A DNA stretch of 64,000 nt from Acidobacteriota bacterium (GTDB lineage Bacteria > Acidobacteriota > Blastocatellia > UBA7656), in contig JBBPIG010000004.1 of assembly GCA_038040445.1 (NCBI GenBank), positions 142,190 through 206,189 of the forward strand, written 5' to 3'. Of the stretch, positions 6,470 to 55,701 are shown one piece after another. A program made the position numbers and the translations under genes. Positions within the stretch are counted from its first letter, which is position 1, and every line of letters begins with the position of its first letter. The notes beneath the pieces are model-generated. The model did not search any database. It saw only the letters and a list, made by a program, of their open reading frames with translations, and was not told the origin of the DNA.

Positions 6470-6895
6470 TCAGATGAACAGCTCCACGGAGACGTGAAAG
6501 AACTCCGCAAGCGCCTTCGCTTTGCTCTTGCTGATCGCGCGCTTGCCATTGAGCACCTCGGAGGTCAGACCCTTCGAGCCGAACACCTCCCAAAGGTCGC
6601 TTGGTTTCAAGTCGCGAGCGGCCATCAGTTCCCGCAGGATGCTGAGAGGCGTCGCCTTTGAGCTCCTTTCGAGACGATAGTGCTCGGTCTCAAACTTCTC
6701 GATCAACGCGACAAGCAAGTCGAGCAAAGCGCTCTCTTCTGGAGTCAGGTTCTCTTCGCCCTTCGACATCAGTTGATCGACCAGGGCGAGCATACGTTCA
6801 TTCTCTTCTTCGCTCGTGATTGCGCGAGGCTGGGCCTTGGCGAGCAAACGAGAATACTTCCTGGCATCGATCCGCACGCTAGGTACCGCAGTCAT
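6470..6895 (-). CDS. HigA-like HTH (XRE) antitoxin, apparently without a toxin
   Basis: A 141-residue protein from the ATG at 6895 (MTAVPSVRID). The N-terminal half is helical and acidic; the C-terminal half carries a helix-turn-helix (TPLSILRELMAARDLKPSDL, then SKGLTSEVLNGKRAISK) typical of HigA antitoxins of host-inhibition modules. A longer reading from 7024 exists but overlaps the start of the divergent radical SAM gene. No HigB-type toxin is found next to it: the segment between 6896 and 7018 codes for nothing convincing. It may be an orphan regulator or half of a decayed module. Confidence 0.75.
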   Translation of the reverse strand: MTAVPSVRIDARKYSRLLAKAQPRAITSEEENERMLALVDQLMSKGEENLTPEESALLDLLVALIEKFETEHYRLERSSKATPLSILRELMAARDLKPSDLWEVFGSKGLTSEVLNGKRAISKSKAKALAEFFHVSVELFI

Positions 6896-11800: not shown

Positions 11801-11882
11801 GTAGCGTAGACTGTCCAGTCTGCGTCTTGCGCCCGATTCCATTCGGTTGGATGTAAGGCGCAGACTGGACAGTCTACGCTAC
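11801..11882. repeat. Perfect 24-bp inverted repeat with nested mini-palindrome
   Basis: Arms 11801-11824 and 11859-11882 are exact reverse complements separated by 34 bp. Each arm contains its own AGACT-GTCC-AGTCT palindrome, so it can form a branched cruciform. It ends a few bases before the ribosome site of the peroxiredoxin gene. No transposase is near; it fits a REP/BIME-like element. Confidence 0.85.
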
Positions 11883-17433: not shown

Positions 17434-20400
17434 TTAATGAAAATCGTGCGAAGCCGCGGCCGTCATCGCGTACGACAGCGGCTGAATGCGCCGAGCTTTG
17501 ACGTGAATCACCCCATCCTGATTCTGCAACACGCCGTCGATCAGAAGCAGCGGCTGATTCACCAACACTAAATGATTGCGGTCGAAGATATCCGGCGTAA
17601 CGATTATGTTCGAGATGCCGGTCTCGTCTTCCATGCTCAAGAACAAAAACCCTTTCGCCGTTCCGGGCCGTTGGCGAACGATGACCCACCCGGCAACCCT
17701 TACCCAAACGCCGTTGCGTATCTCGCGCAGATCAATCGCACGCTTGACACCGAGCTTGTTCAATTCGTCGCGGCGATAAGCGAGCGGATGCTTTCCTACC
17801 GTAAGCCCTGTTCCGCGAAAGTCCGCGTTCACCCGCTCTTCTATCGTCATAGGCGGAAGCGGCGATTCGGCATTCTGATCCTTCTGTTCTTTGAGCAGAG
17901 GCCCAACCGCCCGAGCCGCGCGTTCGACTTGCCAAAGCGCGCTGCGACGATGCAAGAATTGACCGTCGACCGTCGACCGCCGACCGTCTACTGCTGACCG
18001 ACCGTCGACCGTCGACCGCCGACCGTCTACTACTGACTGACCTCTGATGAAATTCAGCGCGCCAACCTCTGCGAGTTTTCTCATCTCATCCTTGCGAAGC
18101 TCGGGCACGCGGTTGTGCAGATCGTCGATGTCAACATACGAGCCCTTCGCACGTTCACGCACGAGCGCGCACGCGGCTTCTTCTCGAAGCCCTTTTACGT
18201 ATCGCATGCCAAGCCGAAGATCGGGGGCTGGGGGTCGGGGGTCGGGGGTCAGGGGTCGGGGATTGGGGGTTGGGGGTTGGGGATTGGTAGACGAATAAGA
18301 AGCTCGCTCTTCAGCAACCCAACCCCCATCCCCTGACCCCCATCCCCCATCTTCAATCGTGCATTCCCAGTCCGAACAAGTGATGTCGATGGGCTTGATC
18401 TTCAGCCCGTGCCGCTGCGCGTCCTTGATAATCGTAGCCGGGTGATAGAAACCCATCGGTTGATTGTTCAGGATCGCAGCAGTGAACGCGGCAAGATAGT
18501 GGCACTTCAAATAAGCGCTTGCGTATGCGATCAGCGCGAAGCTCGCAGCGTGCGATTCGGGGAAGCCATATAGCGCGAATGAAGTAATTGCTTGAACGAT
18601 TTTATCCTGAGTCTCGCCGGTGATTCCGTTGCGCTCCATGCCACGCCGCAGCTTGATATCGATTTCCTGCATGCGCGCTTCGGAACGCTTGAAGCCCATC
18701 GCGCGCCTGAGCTCTTCGGCTTCACCTCCGGTGAAGTTCGCGCAGATCATCGCGATGCGCAGCAACTGTTCTTGAAACAGCGGCACCCCGAGCGTGCGCT
18801 TCAACACCGGTTCAAGCGAAGGGTGCAAACACGCAGGCTCTTCCCTGCCAAGCCGCCGATTCAGATAAGGATGGACCATGTTGCCGACTATCGGGCCGGG
18901 TCGAATGATGGCCACCTGCACCACGATGTCGTAAAACTTTTGAGGCCGCAACCGCGGAAGACAAGACATCTGCGCGCGGCTTTCGACCTGGAACAAGCCA
19001 ATCGTGTCAGCCTTACACAGCGCGTCGTAGACAGCCGGGTCGTCTTGCGGAAGATGCGCCAGATCTACTTCCTCATCGTAATGATCGCGAATCAACGTCA
19101 GGCATTCTTCAATCGCAGCCATCATTCCGAGGCCCAGCAAATCGACTTTGATGATGCCCATATCGGCGCAGTCTTCTTTGTCCCACTGAACGACCACGCG
19201 GCCGGGCATTGCCGCGGGCTCGAGCGGAACAACCGAATCGAGTTGTCCCTGACAGATCACCATCCCGCCCGAGTGCTGACCCAGATGGCGCGGCAGGTCT
19301 TGCACGGCCACATAAAGCTCGAAGAATTTCTTGATGCGCGGGTCCAACAGATCGAGCCCGGCGTCGCGGAACTGACGCTCGGTTGTGTCCTTCGGATCGT
19401 GCCATTCAAAAGCGCGCACCAGACTTGAAAGCCGAGTGATCGTTTCTTCATCAAAGCCCATCGCCTTGCCAACTTCGCGCGCCGCCGAACGGCCGCGATA
19501 AGTGATGCAGTTTGCGGTCATCGCCGCGCCGTGTGTGCCGTAACGCTGATAGACGTGTTGAATCACGCGCTCACGCTGATCGCCGCTCGGCAAATCGAGG
19601 TCTATATCCGGCCATTCGCCTCGTTCTTCGGAGAGGAAGCGTTCGAACAACAGCTCCATGCCGACCGGATCGACGGCGGTTATTCCAAGCGAGTAACACA
19701 CCGCGCTGTTGGCCGCCGAGCCGCGGCCTTGAACCAGGATTCTTTGATCCCGGCAGAAGTTGATGATGTCCCAAACGATCAGAAAGTAACCCGCGAGATG
19801 AAGCTTCTCGATCAAGGCAAGCTCGCGATCGATCTGTTGAAGCGCACGCTGGTAAGTCGGCGTTCCGTTCGCGCCGGTGTAGCGCCCCCGCGCGCCTTCG
19901 CAGGTGCGCTTGCGAAGAAACGAATCCATCGTCTCGCCGGCGGGGACGGGATACTTCGGAAATTCATACCCGAGATCCTCGAGAGTGAACTCAAGCCGGG
20001 AAGAAAGCTCAACCGTATTTGCGATTGCCTGGGGCAGGTCGGCAAACAGCTTCGACATTGAAGAAGCCGTCTTTAAATAACGTTCGGAATTTCGACCGAG
20101 CAATCGCCCGGCAGCTTCAAGCTGCACATGGTTACGAACACAGGTCAACACGTCGGCAAGCTGACGGCGCGCGGCGCTGGCGTAGCACACGCCGTTGGTG
20201 GCAAGCAGCGGGAGCCTGAGCCTTCGCGCTATTTCTATCAGCGCCTGATTGCGCGATTCTTCTTCGCGATTGAAATGGCGTTGAAGCTCGGCCTGGACGT
20301 TGCCCCTCCCGAATATGTCAACAAGCCTTTCGGTTAACCTGGCCGCTTCATCAAGACCGCCGCTTCCGAGCGCGTGCGAGAGCGGCCCATCATCTCCGCC

Positions 20401-20829
20401 GGTCAAACAAGTCAATCCCCCGGCATGCTCAGCCAGTTCGTCCAAGGTGGCCGCGACTTCGCCGGGCTTTGCGTGCTTCGGAGCGCGAAGCTTAATTAGA
20501 GTGATCAAGCGGCAGAGGTTCTGATAGCCCGCGCGGTTCCGGACTAACAAAGGAAGAGTCGTGATGCGCGGGGACTCGTGATGCGTGATGCGTGATGCGT
20601 GACCGGTTGCGAGTACAACGCTTATCTCTGCGCCGATGTGAGCTTTGATCCCGGTCTTTTTCGCCGCCATATGAAACCGCGGCGCGCCGTAGACCCCGTC
20701 GCGGTCGAGCAGCGCCATCGCCGAGCCTCCGAGTTCCGCGCACACGGATGCCAGTTCTTCCGGAAGCGACGCGCCTTCCAGAAAGCTGAACGCGGATCGC
20801 GCGTGGAGTTCAACGTAGTCTTCGGTCAT
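17434..20829 (-). CDS. dnaE2: Error-prone DNA polymerase III alpha DnaE2 with low-complexity insertions
   Basis: A 1131-residue replacement for PolIII alpha in SOS mutagenesis. It has the N-terminal PHP domain (ELHARSAFSFLEGAS), the palm with WPDIDLDLPSGDQRERV, the VQGRGSAANSAVCYSLG block, the helix-hairpin-helix SRAQMSCLPRLRPQKFYD region and a C-terminal OB fold. The start at 20829 (MTEDYVELHA) is the family start. It is longer than usual because three repeat-derived insertions sit at about residues 75-86, 827-870 and 931-958, between conserved blocks. It follows imuB on the same strand, separated by 116 bp holding a hairpin. Confidence 0.95.
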   Translation of the reverse strand: MTEDYVELHARSAFSFLEGASLPEELASVCAELGGSAMALLDRDGVYGAPRFHMAAKKTGIKAHIGAEISVVLATGHASRITHHESPRITTLPLLVRNRAGYQNLCRLITLIKLRAPKHAKPGEVAATLDELAEHAGGLTCLTGGDDGPLSHALGSGGLDEAARLTERLVDIFGRGNVQAELQRHFNREEESRNQALIEIARRLRLPLLATNGVCYASAARRQLADVLTCVRNHVQLEAAGRLLGRNSERYLKTASSMSKLFADLPQAIANTVELSSRLEFTLEDLGYEFPKYPVPAGETMDSFLRKRTCEGARGRYTGANGTPTYQRALQQIDRELALIEKLHLAGYFLIVWDIINFCRDQRILVQGRGSAANSAVCYSLGITAVDPVGMELLFERFLSEERGEWPDIDLDLPSGDQRERVIQHVYQRYGTHGAAMTANCITYRGRSAAREVGKAMGFDEETITRLSSLVRAFEWHDPKDTTERQFRDAGLDLLDPRIKKFFELYVAVQDLPRHLGQHSGGMVICQGQLDSVVPLEPAAMPGRVVVQWDKEDCADMGIIKVDLLGLGMMAAIEECLTLIRDHYDEEVDLAHLPQDDPAVYDALCKADTIGLFQVESRAQMSCLPRLRPQKFYDIVVQVAIIRPGPIVGNMVHPYLNRRLGREEPACLHPSLEPVLKRTLGVPLFQEQLLRIAMICANFTGGEAEELRRAMGFKRSEARMQEIDIKLRRGMERNGITGETQDKIVQAITSFALYGFPESHAASFALIAYASAYLKCHYLAAFTAAILNNQPMGFYHPATIIKDAQRHGLKIKPIDITCSDWECTIEDGGWGSGDGGWVAEERASYSSTNPQPPTPNPRPLTPDPRPPAPDLRLGMRYVKGLREEAACALVRERAKGSYVDIDDLHNRVPELRKDEMRKLAEVGALNFIRGQSVVDGRRSTVDGRSAVDGRRSTVDGQFLHRRSALWQVERAARAVGPLLKEQKDQNAESPLPPMTIEERVNADFRGTGLTVGKHPLAYRRDELNKLGVKRAIDLREIRNGVWVRVAGWVIVRQRPGTAKGFLFLSMEDETGISNIIVTPDIFDRNHLVLVNQPLLLIDGVLQNQDGVIHVKARRIQPLSYAMTAAASHDFH
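17961..18038. repeat. 39-bp tandem duplication of heptad repeats inside dnaE2
   Basis: Two adjacent copies of a 39-bp unit (starts 17961 and 18000), itself made of degenerate CCGTCGA heptamers. The 39-bp period equals 13 codons, so the protein repeats VDGRRSTVDG twice and the reading frame is kept. Confidence 0.9.
18217..18352. repeat. G-rich/C-rich heptad hairpin inside dnaE2
   Basis: Left arm 18217-18287 is a run of GGGGGTC/GGGGATT/GGGGGTT heptamers; right arm 18316-18352 is the complementary CCCCCAT/CCCCTGA run. The outer ends GAAGATCGGGG and CCCCATCTTC pair. The insert stays in frame and codes for Gly/Trp-rich and Pro-rich stretches (GGWGSGDGGW and NPQPPTPNPRPLTPDPRPP). Several G-runs give G-quadruplex potential on the plus strand. 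Confidence 0.9.
20578..20605. repeat. GTGATGC heptad repeat inside dnaE2
   Basis: Three exact GTGATGC units and a partial fourth, in the region coding for HASRITHHESPRIT near residue 80 of DnaE2. The same heptamer forms the hairpin at 48165-48296. Confidence 0.85.
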
Positions 20830-20853
20830 AACCAACTCTGCGTCTTTGCGAAT

Positions 20854-20914
20854 CTTGGCGGTCTTTGCGCGAAACGTTTCTCTGCGAATCATGTTTCGCG
20901 CAAAGAGCGCCAAG
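20854..20914. repeat. 22-bp inverted repeat between imuB and dnaE2
   Basis: Arms 20854-20875 and 20893-20914 match with one mismatch and contain CTTTGCG words. It lies in the 116-bp gap of the imuB-dnaE2 transcript and could act as an attenuator or RNA-stability hairpin. Confidence 0.8.
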
Positions 20915-20945
20915 TTCCGCAAAGCTCGCTACGGCCATTTAGCAA

Positions 20946-22507: not shown

Positions 22508-23302
22508 ATGGCAGAAAAGAAAAACAAAAGATCGGAACACATGAGCGATGCGTTGTTTGGTGAGTTAAAGGAATCGCTAGGGCAAGCTTTGCAACATGCT
22601 CGCGGCAAGTCTTTCCAAAACATCATCGACGAGCTGCGGGAATTCTATGGCCCGCCCGAGCCACCCAAGGTCACCGATCCGCTGGGGATCATCTTGCTCG
22701 AGAACGTCGCTTACCTGGTGAGTGACGAGCGCCGCGAGCAAGCCTTCGACGCTCTTCGCGAGCGAGTCGGCCTAACGCCGCCTGAAATCCTCATGGCTCA
22801 CGAGGAGACCTTGCTCGAAGTGGCCCGCCTCGGGGGAATGCATCCTGCCGCGCGGGTGGAAAAACTCCGGCGCATCGCGCAGATTGCGCTGCAACAGTTC
22901 GATGGCGACCTCGACAAAGTCCTCAAGCTGCCCCTTGCTCAGGCAAAGAAATCATTGAAGAAGTTTTCGGGAATCGGTGACCCAGGCGCGGAAAAAATAT
23001 TGCTCGTCTCGAAGACCCATCCGATCCTCGCACTGGATTCGAACGGGCTGCGAGTGCTGCTGCGACTTGGCTATGGCGAAGAGCGAAAGAGCTACTCTTC
23101 GACCTATCGCTCGGCGCAAGAGGCGGTCAAGGACGAGTTGAAGAAAGACTACGATTGGTTGATTGCGGCTCATCAACTACTGCGCCGTCACGGGCAGGAG
23201 CTGTGCAAAAGGATCGAGCCGTTGTGCCCGTCCTGCCCGGTGAAATCGAGCTGCCGATACTATCAAGAGAATGCGCGGAAGAGCATGGAGTTCAGGCTTT
23301 AG
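22508..23302 (+). CDS. HhH-GPD base-excision DNA glycosylase with [4Fe-4S] cluster motif
   Basis: A 264-residue relative of endonuclease III. The helix-hairpin-helix reads FSGIGDPGAEKIL, followed by the catalytic Asp in LALDSNGLRVLLRLGY and a C-terminal CX6CX2CX5C iron-sulfur loop (CKRIEPLCPSCPVKSSC). The Lys of the canonical GVGRKTA loop is replaced by Pro, so beta-lyase activity is doubtful and it may be monofunctional. The ATG at 22508 is chosen over the reading at 22466. It is divergent from imuB and may share its control. The last residues MEFRL and the stop are supplied by a long inverted repeat. Confidence 0.85.
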   Translation: MAEKKNKRSEHMSDALFGELKESLGQALQHARGKSFQNIIDELREFYGPPEPPKVTDPLGIILLENVAYLVSDERREQAFDALRERVGLTPPEILMAHEETLLEVARLGGMHPAARVEKLRRIAQIALQQFDGDLDKVLKLPLAQAKKSLKKFSGIGDPGAEKILLVSKTHPILALDSNGLRVLLRLGYGEERKSYSSTYRSAQEAVKDELKKDYDWLIAAHQLLRRHGQELCKRIEPLCPSCPVKSSCRYYQENARKSMEFRL

Positions 23303-23358
23303 CCTGGGTTCTTCCCCGCTTCGCAAAACAAACCCAGGCTAAAGCCTGAACTCCATGC
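23283..23358. repeat. Perfect 28-bp inverted repeat spanning two convergent gene ends
   Basis: Arms 23283-23310 and 23331-23358 are exact reverse complements with a 20-bp loop. Each arm contains an AGGCT-TT-AGCCT mini-palindrome whose TAG is the stop codon of the gene entering from that side. Both proteins therefore end in MEFRL. It may also act as a bidirectional terminator. Confidence 0.92.
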
Positions 23359-23746
23359 CCTTTGAACGTCGCAGACCATAGGCTTTGTGACGGACCTTTC
23401 CTCTAGACGACACCAACCCCTGAGCTTCGAACTCGCGCAGTATTCGCCCCGCGCGGTGGTAATCAATTGAGAGCCACATCTGCAGAATCGCGTGCGATGC
23501 CTGGCCAAACTCGGTCACCACGACAAGCGCGTCGTCGTATAGTTCGTCGGGCACAGACGCGTCGGCATCGCAGGGTTTCGCCGGTTGACTGGTTTCATGC
23601 TCGGCATCGCCGAGATTGGACAGTGAAGCCTCGCGTTGTTGGTTAGCGCGCGCCGCGGCGCTCGGGGTCGCCTCGATCATCAAGAGAATCTCTTCCAGTT
23701 CGCGGCGCAACTCTGACAGGCGAAGCTCCAGATTGGACGAGTCCAT
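23339..23746 (-). CDS. Stand-alone FtsK-gamma-like winged-helix protein
   Basis: A 135-residue protein with a helical N-terminus (LRLSELRRELEEILLMIEA), an acidic linker, and a C-terminal winged helix (YDDALVVVTEFGQASHAILQMWLSIDYHRAGRILREFEAQGLV) matching the FtsK gamma domain that reads KOPS sequences. No FtsK motor domain is present. It could be a small DNA-binding regulator. Its final codons come from the inverted repeat shared with the convergent glycosylase gene. Confidence 0.75.
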   Translation of the reverse strand: MDSSNLELRLSELRRELEEILLMIEATPSAAARANQQREASLSNLGDAEHETSQPAKPCDADASVPDELYDDALVVVTEFGQASHAILQMWLSIDYHRAGRILREFEAQGLVSSRGKVRHKAYGLRRSKGMEFRL

Positions 23747-31877: not shown

Positions 31878-31880
31878 TCT

Positions 31881-31950
31881 GGAGTTCAGAGTACAAGCTT
31901 TAGCTTGCTGTTGTAGTGGCTAGCAAGCTAAAGCTTGTACTCTGAACTCC
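31881..31950. repeat. Perfect 29-bp inverted repeat between thrS and the Sua5 gene
   Basis: Arms 31881-31909 and 31922-31950 are exact reverse complements with a 12-bp loop. Each arm starts or ends with GGAGTTCA, as at 23283, and carries an AAGCT-TT-AGCTT mini-palindrome. It begins 3 bp after the thrS stop and may work as a terminator. Confidence 0.9.
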
Positions 31951-31966
31951 GGCGGACCTTCACGCA

Positions 31967-48157: not shown

Positions 48158-48164
48158 GCGGAAA

Positions 48165-48296
48165 GTGATGCGTGAAACGTGATGCGTGATGCGTGAGACG
48201 TGAGACGTGATGCGTGACAAGATTTCTACGCAGGGGTCCGGTTACGAATCACGAATCACGCATCACGCATCACGCATCACGTTTCACGCATCACTC
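48165..48296. repeat. GTGATGC heptad hairpin upstream of the NtrC-type gene
   Basis: Left arm 48165-48218 is tandem GTGATGC and GTGAGAC units; right arm 48244-48296 is the complementary GCATCAC run. At least 27 bp pair without mismatch and the loop is about 25 bp. The right arm ends within the stop region of the DUF6599 gene at 48291, and the left arm is 8 bp upstream of the regulator ATG. Confidence 0.93.
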
Positions 48297-49601
48297 TTCA
48301 CTCCTCTTCGGTGGTAGTCTTAGCATCACGGACTCGAACGGCTCGATATCAAGGCGCAGCATGCCACCGGCGTCGGAGAACACTTCTCGCTGCTGTTTTC
48401 GCCGCTTCAAAAAGATTGTCGTGCCGAATACCGAGCCCCCTACCAGCACCGTGGCCAGGATCAAGCCAAGCAGACCAAAGGTCGATAGCAACATATCCGC
48501 CGTTTTCTCCATGCGGAACGGATCGTTGACCGGCCATAGCGGATTGCGTAGCCACTTCACTGTGTAGGGATATTGCACCGAGTTGACCAGGCTTTCGGCA
48601 AACTCGCGGTCCCGGACGTTCACTGCCTCGACCAGGTAGTTCCCCGTCCGCTTGAAGATTATGTGCTGCTGATCGGTTTCGGGGAGCGATGAGACGTAGC
48701 TTGTGACGCGCGCCATAGCGTCGGTAGCAAACTGCGGAGTGTGGAACTCGACGATCAGAAGCTTCAGCGGCGAATCGGGTGCTCCCGGCGCCGATCGGGC
48801 AACGCTTTCCATCTTAGCCTGTGTTTGACCCGTCGCCTGCGTCTGCGGCGCGCCACTGTTCGGGCCTTCGCCTTGCGCGTACTGAGCCATCACCGCTTCG
48901 GTGTCTCCGGCGAATTCAAACATCGCCCGGCCATGTTCAAGGAAGGCGTCCAGCGATTCCGGACCCAGGAAATAGCGTTGGCTTTGCGGAACCAGGGACG
49001 CGGCCGGCAAGCTGTCGAGCAGAGGCGGACGGGTGACGACCGCGCTCATCGGAACAATCGCATCCGCAACCGCGCGGGCCAAAGCTTCTCGAACAGTCGA
49101 GCTTACCCGGGAAGGCTTCTGACTTGGGTCACCAACGCGAACAAAGAAGGTCCCTTTCCAGAAGACCAGCTCGCCATCGAGCCGAGCGCCGCCCGAGCCT
49201 ATATCTTCCTCGATGGGTTTGACCCTGCTCGCTCCGCAATTGAACATAAACAGCCCAAGTGCCGCGAACTGGTTTTCTGTTTCGAACACATCGACGCGAA
49301 CTCCCGCGTACTCACGCGAAGCGGCCGACGTGACCCGGTATTCCTCGTAGATTGCCGCTTTGTCTCCGACAAGCTCGACGAGGTTGTCTCCACCTATTGG
49401 CTTTATGTCGCTGGTTGCCCTTAAGCGAGCGAGGCTGCCGGGTAGCAATCGCGCGAGCGGGCTCGACGATGCGAGGGGCGTCACTGCCGCGCTGGCCGGT
49501 TGATCCTCCCCCGCCGGCGCCTGCCGAGCTCCGATGGCAAGGGGCGATATTAGTACTAGTATGAGTGCCAGCACTGCCGGCCGTTGCTTCTCCAAATGCA
49601 T
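48291..49601 (-). CDS. Exported DUF6599-like membrane-anchored protein
   Basis: A 436-residue protein with a signal peptide (VLALILVLISPLAIGA), a large periplasmic region and one C-terminal transmembrane helix (about 390-415, LLSTFGLLGLILATVLVGGSVFG) followed by a basic tail. Blocks YAGVRVDVFETENQFAALGLF and GELVFWKGTFFVRV fit the DUF6599 family. Its stop lies inside the right arm of the heptad hairpin. Function is unknown. Confidence 0.8.
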   Translation of the reverse strand: MHLEKQRPAVLALILVLISPLAIGARQAPAGEDQPASAAVTPLASSSPLARLLPGSLARLRATSDIKPIGGDNLVELVGDKAAIYEEYRVTSAASREYAGVRVDVFETENQFAALGLFMFNCGASRVKPIEEDIGSGGARLDGELVFWKGTFFVRVGDPSQKPSRVSSTVREALARAVADAIVPMSAVVTRPPLLDSLPAASLVPQSQRYFLGPESLDAFLEHGRAMFEFAGDTEAVMAQYAQGEGPNSGAPQTQATGQTQAKMESVARSAPGAPDSPLKLLIVEFHTPQFATDAMARVTSYVSSLPETDQQHIIFKRTGNYLVEAVNVRDREFAESLVNSVQYPYTVKWLRNPLWPVNDPFRMEKTADMLLSTFGLLGLILATVLVGGSVFGTTIFLKRRKQQREVFSDAGGMLRLDIEPFESVMLRLPPKRSEE

Positions 49602-55386: not shown

Positions 55387-55461
55387 CAAGCTGCTCCTGG
55401 GGAAAGCTCACAGTAGCATCCGTGAAACCGAAGCATCACTCGCGGGTTGTCATTCCTGGGG

Positions 55462-55574
55462 GCGCGTCAGCTTTTCGCGCATACCCACGCCTGCCAGAGA
55501 CTGTCGTGGGTGGGATTCCAGGAGTTTTCACACGGTCTCTGGCAGGCGTGGGTATGCGCGAAAATCTGACGCGC
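55462..55574. repeat. 40-bp inverted repeat in a 315-bp gap
   Basis: Arms 55462-55501 and 55535-55574 pair over 40 bp with one mismatch and a 33-bp loop. The rest of the gap (55387-55701) holds no gene. No transposase or terminal target duplication is visible. Confidence 0.9.
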
Positions 55575-55701
55575 ACCAAAGTAACGATCGAAACAAGCAC
55601 GTCATTCGAGTTCTCAGCGGTCTTGACTGGCACGGTTTGACCTAGTAGAAGATCCGTTGTCGATGGAGTCGGCATGAGCCCGCGATGCGCACTTCAGCAT
55701 C

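Follow-up and report, generated by a model that had tools for sequence, protein, structure and literature searches.

A REPIN-type palindromic repeat that very probably capped two convergent genes with the same C-terminal residues in an Acidobacteriota genome

Within the window (the whole 64,000-nucleotide stretch of DNA that was analysed), two convergent genes end inside one palindrome and finish in the same residues, and we consider it very likely that a REPIN inserted at their junction and capped both with the same residues and stop codon. This explanation draws on three observations: the palindrome belongs to a dispersed family, orthologues carry other tails, and a sister copy of the element has inserted cleanly elsewhere in the genome. 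The element would be a mobile but non-autonomous repeat, one of those that RAYT (Y1/HUH) transposases copy in trans, and would have inserted at the 3' junction of the two genes. Each of its arms, read inwards, offers a TAG in one frame, and both genes would have chanced on the K-x-M-E-F-R-L-stop phase and so gained identical tails, which were probably dispensable and presumably neutral. The features concerned are as follows.

22541 to 23302, plus strand: HhH-GPD base-excision glycosylase-like gene with a Cys-rich C-terminus (ORF; Pfam HhH-GPD; nine orthologues 51–64% identical over the core)
23339 to 23746, minus strand: gene for a small FtsK_gamma-domain protein of 135 aa (ORF; Pfam FtsK_gamma)
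23279 to 23362, no strand: REPIN-type palindromic element of 84 bp (inverted repeat; member of covariance model family R1)
23279 to 23302, plus strand: glycosylase tail KSMEFRL and TAG attributed to the element (ORF; orthologue comparison; joining of flanks)
23339 to 23362, minus strand: FtsK_gamma tail KGMEFRL and TAG attributed to the element (ORF; joining of flanks)

The last seven codons and the stop of each gene lie in the element. The glycosylase reads ...QENAR-KSMEFRL-TAG, with its stop at 23300-23302 (plus strand), and the FtsK_gamma gene reads ...GLRRS-KGMEFRL-TAG, with its stop at 23339-23341 (minus strand); for both, the stop is the TAG of AGGCTTTAG. Codon-usage scores are positive for both ORFs, and the Pfam matches have E values of 2.9e-5 for HhH-GPD, slightly under the gathering cut-off, and 2.7e-11 for FtsK_gamma. 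Read inwards in phase 0, either arm gives K-x-M-E-F-R-L-stop, and the other two phases run on for 20 and 22 codons until the far arm stops them. Stops are present in all six frames, so any frame entering the window element reaches one within 8–23 codons, and because the arms are mirror images a common tail requires no more than entry of the two frames in one phase.

The arms pair perfectly over 28 bp (23283-23310 with 23331-23358); the initial annotation, made from this DNA alone, had described such a palindrome with both genes ending in MEFRL and TAG inside its arms, and both the pairing and the ORF ends bear it out. If one mismatch is allowed, each arm lengthens to 32 bp (23279-23310 and 23331-23362), with a loop of 20 nt between them; the outer edge of the element is uncertain by about 3 bp. 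Compared with 200 shuffles, the fold has a z-score of -11.5 as DNA and -11.6 as RNA, and none of the 200 was as good. The single long hairpin is made of two inverted REPs.

23287 to 23306, plus strand: REP hairpin 1, with a GGAG foot, TT and a CAGGC-TTTA-GCCTG stem-loop (exact GGAGTTCAGGCTTTAGCCTG)
23335 to 23354, minus strand: REP hairpin 2, an inverted copy of hairpin 1 (exact GGAGTTCAGGCTTTAGCCTG on the minus strand)

The foot of the window element is thus GGAG (AGAG in the sister type), 2 nt from the stem. The canonical REP foot is defined as GT[AG]G, i.e. GTAG or GTGG (PMC6006769), and the arrangement typical of the GTAG superfamily, with that foot 0–2 nt 5' of the hairpin, is absent from the window element. 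We therefore do not regard it as a canonical GTAG REP and claim it as REPIN-type with a variant foot; a search of the region against Rfam gave no family match. The identification as a REPIN, that is, an inverted pair of REP hairpins that each bear a foot of four bases, in a dispersed family, shares the high probability that we give to the explanation as a whole.

The exact 20-mer GGAGTTCAGGCTTTAGCCTG occurs at 17 places in the 6.75 Mb genome (72 contigs) and its reversed control at none, so the repeat is not due to chance. Copies were located by pattern and covariance model, the window element itself (C4:165468-165551) being matched with 92 bits (E 2e-21). Distinct sites number at least 71, a lower bound since scoring covered 150 of the 3094 first-look candidates, and comprise 13 strong matches of the GGAG subfamily and 58 weaker ones of a sister type with AGAGTTCAAGCTTTAGCTTG; the repeat is thus a short hairpin, dispersed and in high copy number. 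Aligned copies have the arms AAGNGCATGGAGTTCAGGCTTTAGCCTGG and CCAGGCTAAAGCCTGAACTCCATGCNCTT in common around a variable loop, and arm pairing is kept across copies, an outer variable pair changing on both sides (A-U, C-G or G-C). A second copy lies in the window.

31880 to 31951, no strand: second palindrome of the same model, AGAG/CAAGCTTTAGCTTG subfamily (C4:174069-174140; 55.6 bits; inverted repeat I12)

Near-identical arms might also have arisen locally, had one gene end been duplicated and inverted into the other, but the same paired arms stand at 12 other unrelated loci, which contradicts a local origin and makes it next to impossible. The exact 20-mer was absent from the searched genomes of the same genus (including G001) and of the same family, and was found in four genomes that belong to a different family in the class (G019, G027, G031 and G042). 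This patchy distribution suggests either horizontal spread or patchy or deep retention.

Capping of a gene by a REPIN can be seen before and after the event at a sister copy, with the filled site in this genome (C10:137405-137488) and the empty site in the same genus. Here a pseudouridine synthase ends ...PEDIAATI-KRMEFRL-stop, and its orthologue in G001 (72% identity) ends ...PEDIAATLERYALTGS-stop, also given as IAATLERYALTGS-stop. Past the REPIN, the genome under study reads CGG TAT GCG CTC ACG GGC TTC TAA, and with the element removed the flanks rejoin as ...PEDIAATI-RYALTGF-stop, the net insertion relative to G001 being 81 bp, without loss. The filled and empty sites together indicate movement, and since the whole native tail still follows the element, it was displaced, not overwritten. 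Judged from these alignments, the C10 locus is a clean insertion that capped the pseudouridine synthase and overwrote nothing. At another copy, C11:108144, a gene of the AP_endonuc_2 family ends in the arm in another phase, as EEHGVQL-stop, and its relatives end in REIANS-stop or RELSN-stop; a one-base deletion in the C11 arm makes this other-phase ending possible.

When positions 23279-23362 are removed from the window, ...TAT CAA GAG AAT GCG CGG meets TGA, and the glycosylase would end RYYQENAR-stop; this TGA is in frame directly after the last native glycosylase codon, at the insertion point. If the element is taken as 81 bp, as at C10, one extra glycosylase residue precedes the TGA. The FtsK_gamma frame continues across the joined flanks for 33 more codons to a stop, antisense to the glycosylase, and we infer for the state before insertion either that the two genes overlapped or that the FtsK_gamma end changed later. 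The lack of a native FtsK_gamma end in the joined flanks would also fit an element that overwrote both gene ends, by insertion with deletion of the junction. Against this stand the survival of the native tail and the net gain without loss at C10, and, for the glycosylase, the TGA right at the join of the flanks, and we hold overwriting to be unlikely. The initial annotation had proposed insertion of a mobile palindrome that overwrote both ends; its first half is upheld by the dispersed REPIN-type repeat, the orthologues without it and the empty site for the sister copy, and its second half is not supported by the findings just given.

The nine glycosylase orthologues align as far as the conserved CxYYQ region. 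Eight of their tails were read to the stop, and these all differ from one another and none ends in MEFRL; the match to the ninth (L102, genome G156) stops before the tail. In two genomes of another genus, G157 (L103) and G159 (L104), the glycosylase tail is formed by a different and very abundant palindromic repeat, CCGCGAGCGGTAGCGACCGG (315 matches in G157 and 42 in G159), copies of which span the gene end in G157 (C103:6700-6719 and 6784-6803), so that at least two repeat families, unrelated to each other, have capped this one glycosylase gene. For the FtsK_gamma gene no close orthologue was found, the search giving FtsK-type gamma domains only (34–45% identity). Orthologues with the same end residues and no repeat, which would have told against the earlier reading of the palindrome, were looked for and none appeared.

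A survey of the genome for further copies and for gene ends within them had also been proposed, and it covered the sites described above; genes around the copies were called by a home-made codon-usage caller with rough starts, and conclusions are drawn from 3' ends only. Of the neighbours facing a copy with their 3' ends, 5 of 14 end inside the element in the GGAG subfamily and 6 of 57 in the other. The five genes of the GGAG subfamily include a glycosylase, an AP-endonuclease family gene, a PolX/PHP-like gene and a pseudouridine synthase (one each). Four of the five are DNA-repair or pseudouridine-synthase genes (C10:137405, C11:108144, C21:75066 and window 23279-23362), a number too small to claim enrichment of repair genes; such genes have been noted among REP-tagged genes elsewhere (PMC3733652). 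Neighbour orientation is close to random in the GGAG subfamily (4 convergent, 6 tandem and 3 divergent; n=13), and the other subfamily has 8 convergent, 41 tandem and 8 divergent. All six frames are closed in 53 of 71 copies, compared with about 12–15% of shuffles; the element therefore acts as a general stop, and the double cap, genes ending inside the element on both sides being found at the window copy only (1/71), is a coincidence of place and phase.

The initial annotation had alternatively suggested that selection maintains the palindrome as a stop codon and transcription terminator acting in both directions, for both genes. The hairpin is strong, the copies are nearer to the 3' ends of genes than to the 5' ends, and REPs are known to occur where genes end and in the gaps of convergent pairs (PMC3733652), all of which would suit such a role. 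However, an intrinsic terminator (a GC-rich hairpin followed by a U-tract) was looked for at the element and none was found, and neither the convergent placement of just 4 of 13 copies nor the single two-sided cap speaks for selection, which we regard as quite improbable.

Insertion of a mobile repeat, the reading that we prefer, is in keeping with what is seen around RAYT genes. One intact RAYT in the genome exceeds the curated cut-off (NF047646; 83 bits; C2:30091-30477, C2:30160), and it is bracketed on both sides by GTAG-type REPINs that read either GTAGTACCGCCTTCAGGCGG or (G)TAGTCCCGCCTTCAGGCGG. RAYT-like genes of the same class are likewise bracketed on both sides, by TTCAGAGTTC-ACGCTTCAGCGT in G031, TTCAGAGTTC-CGCCTTTAGGCGG in G019 and TTCAGAGTAC-CGCCTTTAGGCGG in G042. 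The layout of these last REPINs, TTCAGAGTTC or TTCAGAGTAC followed by stem-TTYA-stem and inverted, is that of both subfamilies of the window family, and the stem sequence differs. By this resemblance, the window subfamily may also be mobilized by a RAYT. Like the REPINs or BIMEs mobilized by RAYT (TnpA_REP), the window family has an inverted pair of REP hairpins, a four-base foot and many dispersed, mostly gene-adjacent copies, and REPINs with this layout stand on both sides of RAYT genes in the class; unlike in the known REPINs or BIMEs, its foot is GGAG or AGAG, not GTAG or GTGG, and no RAYT flanked by the exact window REP was found in the genome.

Neighbouring ORFs receive TAG stop codons from GTAG REPs (Di Nocera et al. 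2013, PMC3733652). As in that report, the repeat supplies gene ends and the site lies between convergent genes, but the TAG sits at the GTAG terminus of those REPs, whereas the window element carries it within the hairpin (CTTTAG) and uses both arms at a single site. Since stop donation by REPs and their location between convergent genes have already been published (PMC3733652), the novelty of the double cap is one of detail only; it is a well-explained instance of a known effect, provided by a REPIN family whose foot is non-canonical, and not a new kind of element. Rickettsia palindromic elements (RPE) similarly add residues to unrelated proteins, but these lie in frame within ORFs, whereas the window element ends ORFs and contributes just 7 residues. 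Non-coding repeats thus feed new sequence into protein tails, one symmetric element can rewrite two proteins together, and identical C-termini of unrelated proteins should be read with the warning that they can be repeat-derived. It is possible, although we hold it as no better than a tentative idea, that REPIN-type repeats are recurrent donors of C-termini in the class, with the glycosylase capped independently by unrelated families across genera, enzyme tails turning over and DNA-repair genes over-represented.

Other repeats were noted in the window. Two more long palindromes, at 11801-11882 and 55459-55577, are of GTAGCGTAGACTGTCCAGTCTGCG and GGGGCGCGTCAGCTTTTCGCGCAT types and probably represent other REPIN families. 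Short repeats of GTGATGCGTGA type are arrayed in both orientations at 48164-48306, where they form long imperfect hairpins. Lastly, G-rich tandem-like repeats at 18237-18348, inside the ORF at 17434-20922, which we take to be a predicted DnaE2-like polymerase, are translated in frame into a stretch rich in proline.
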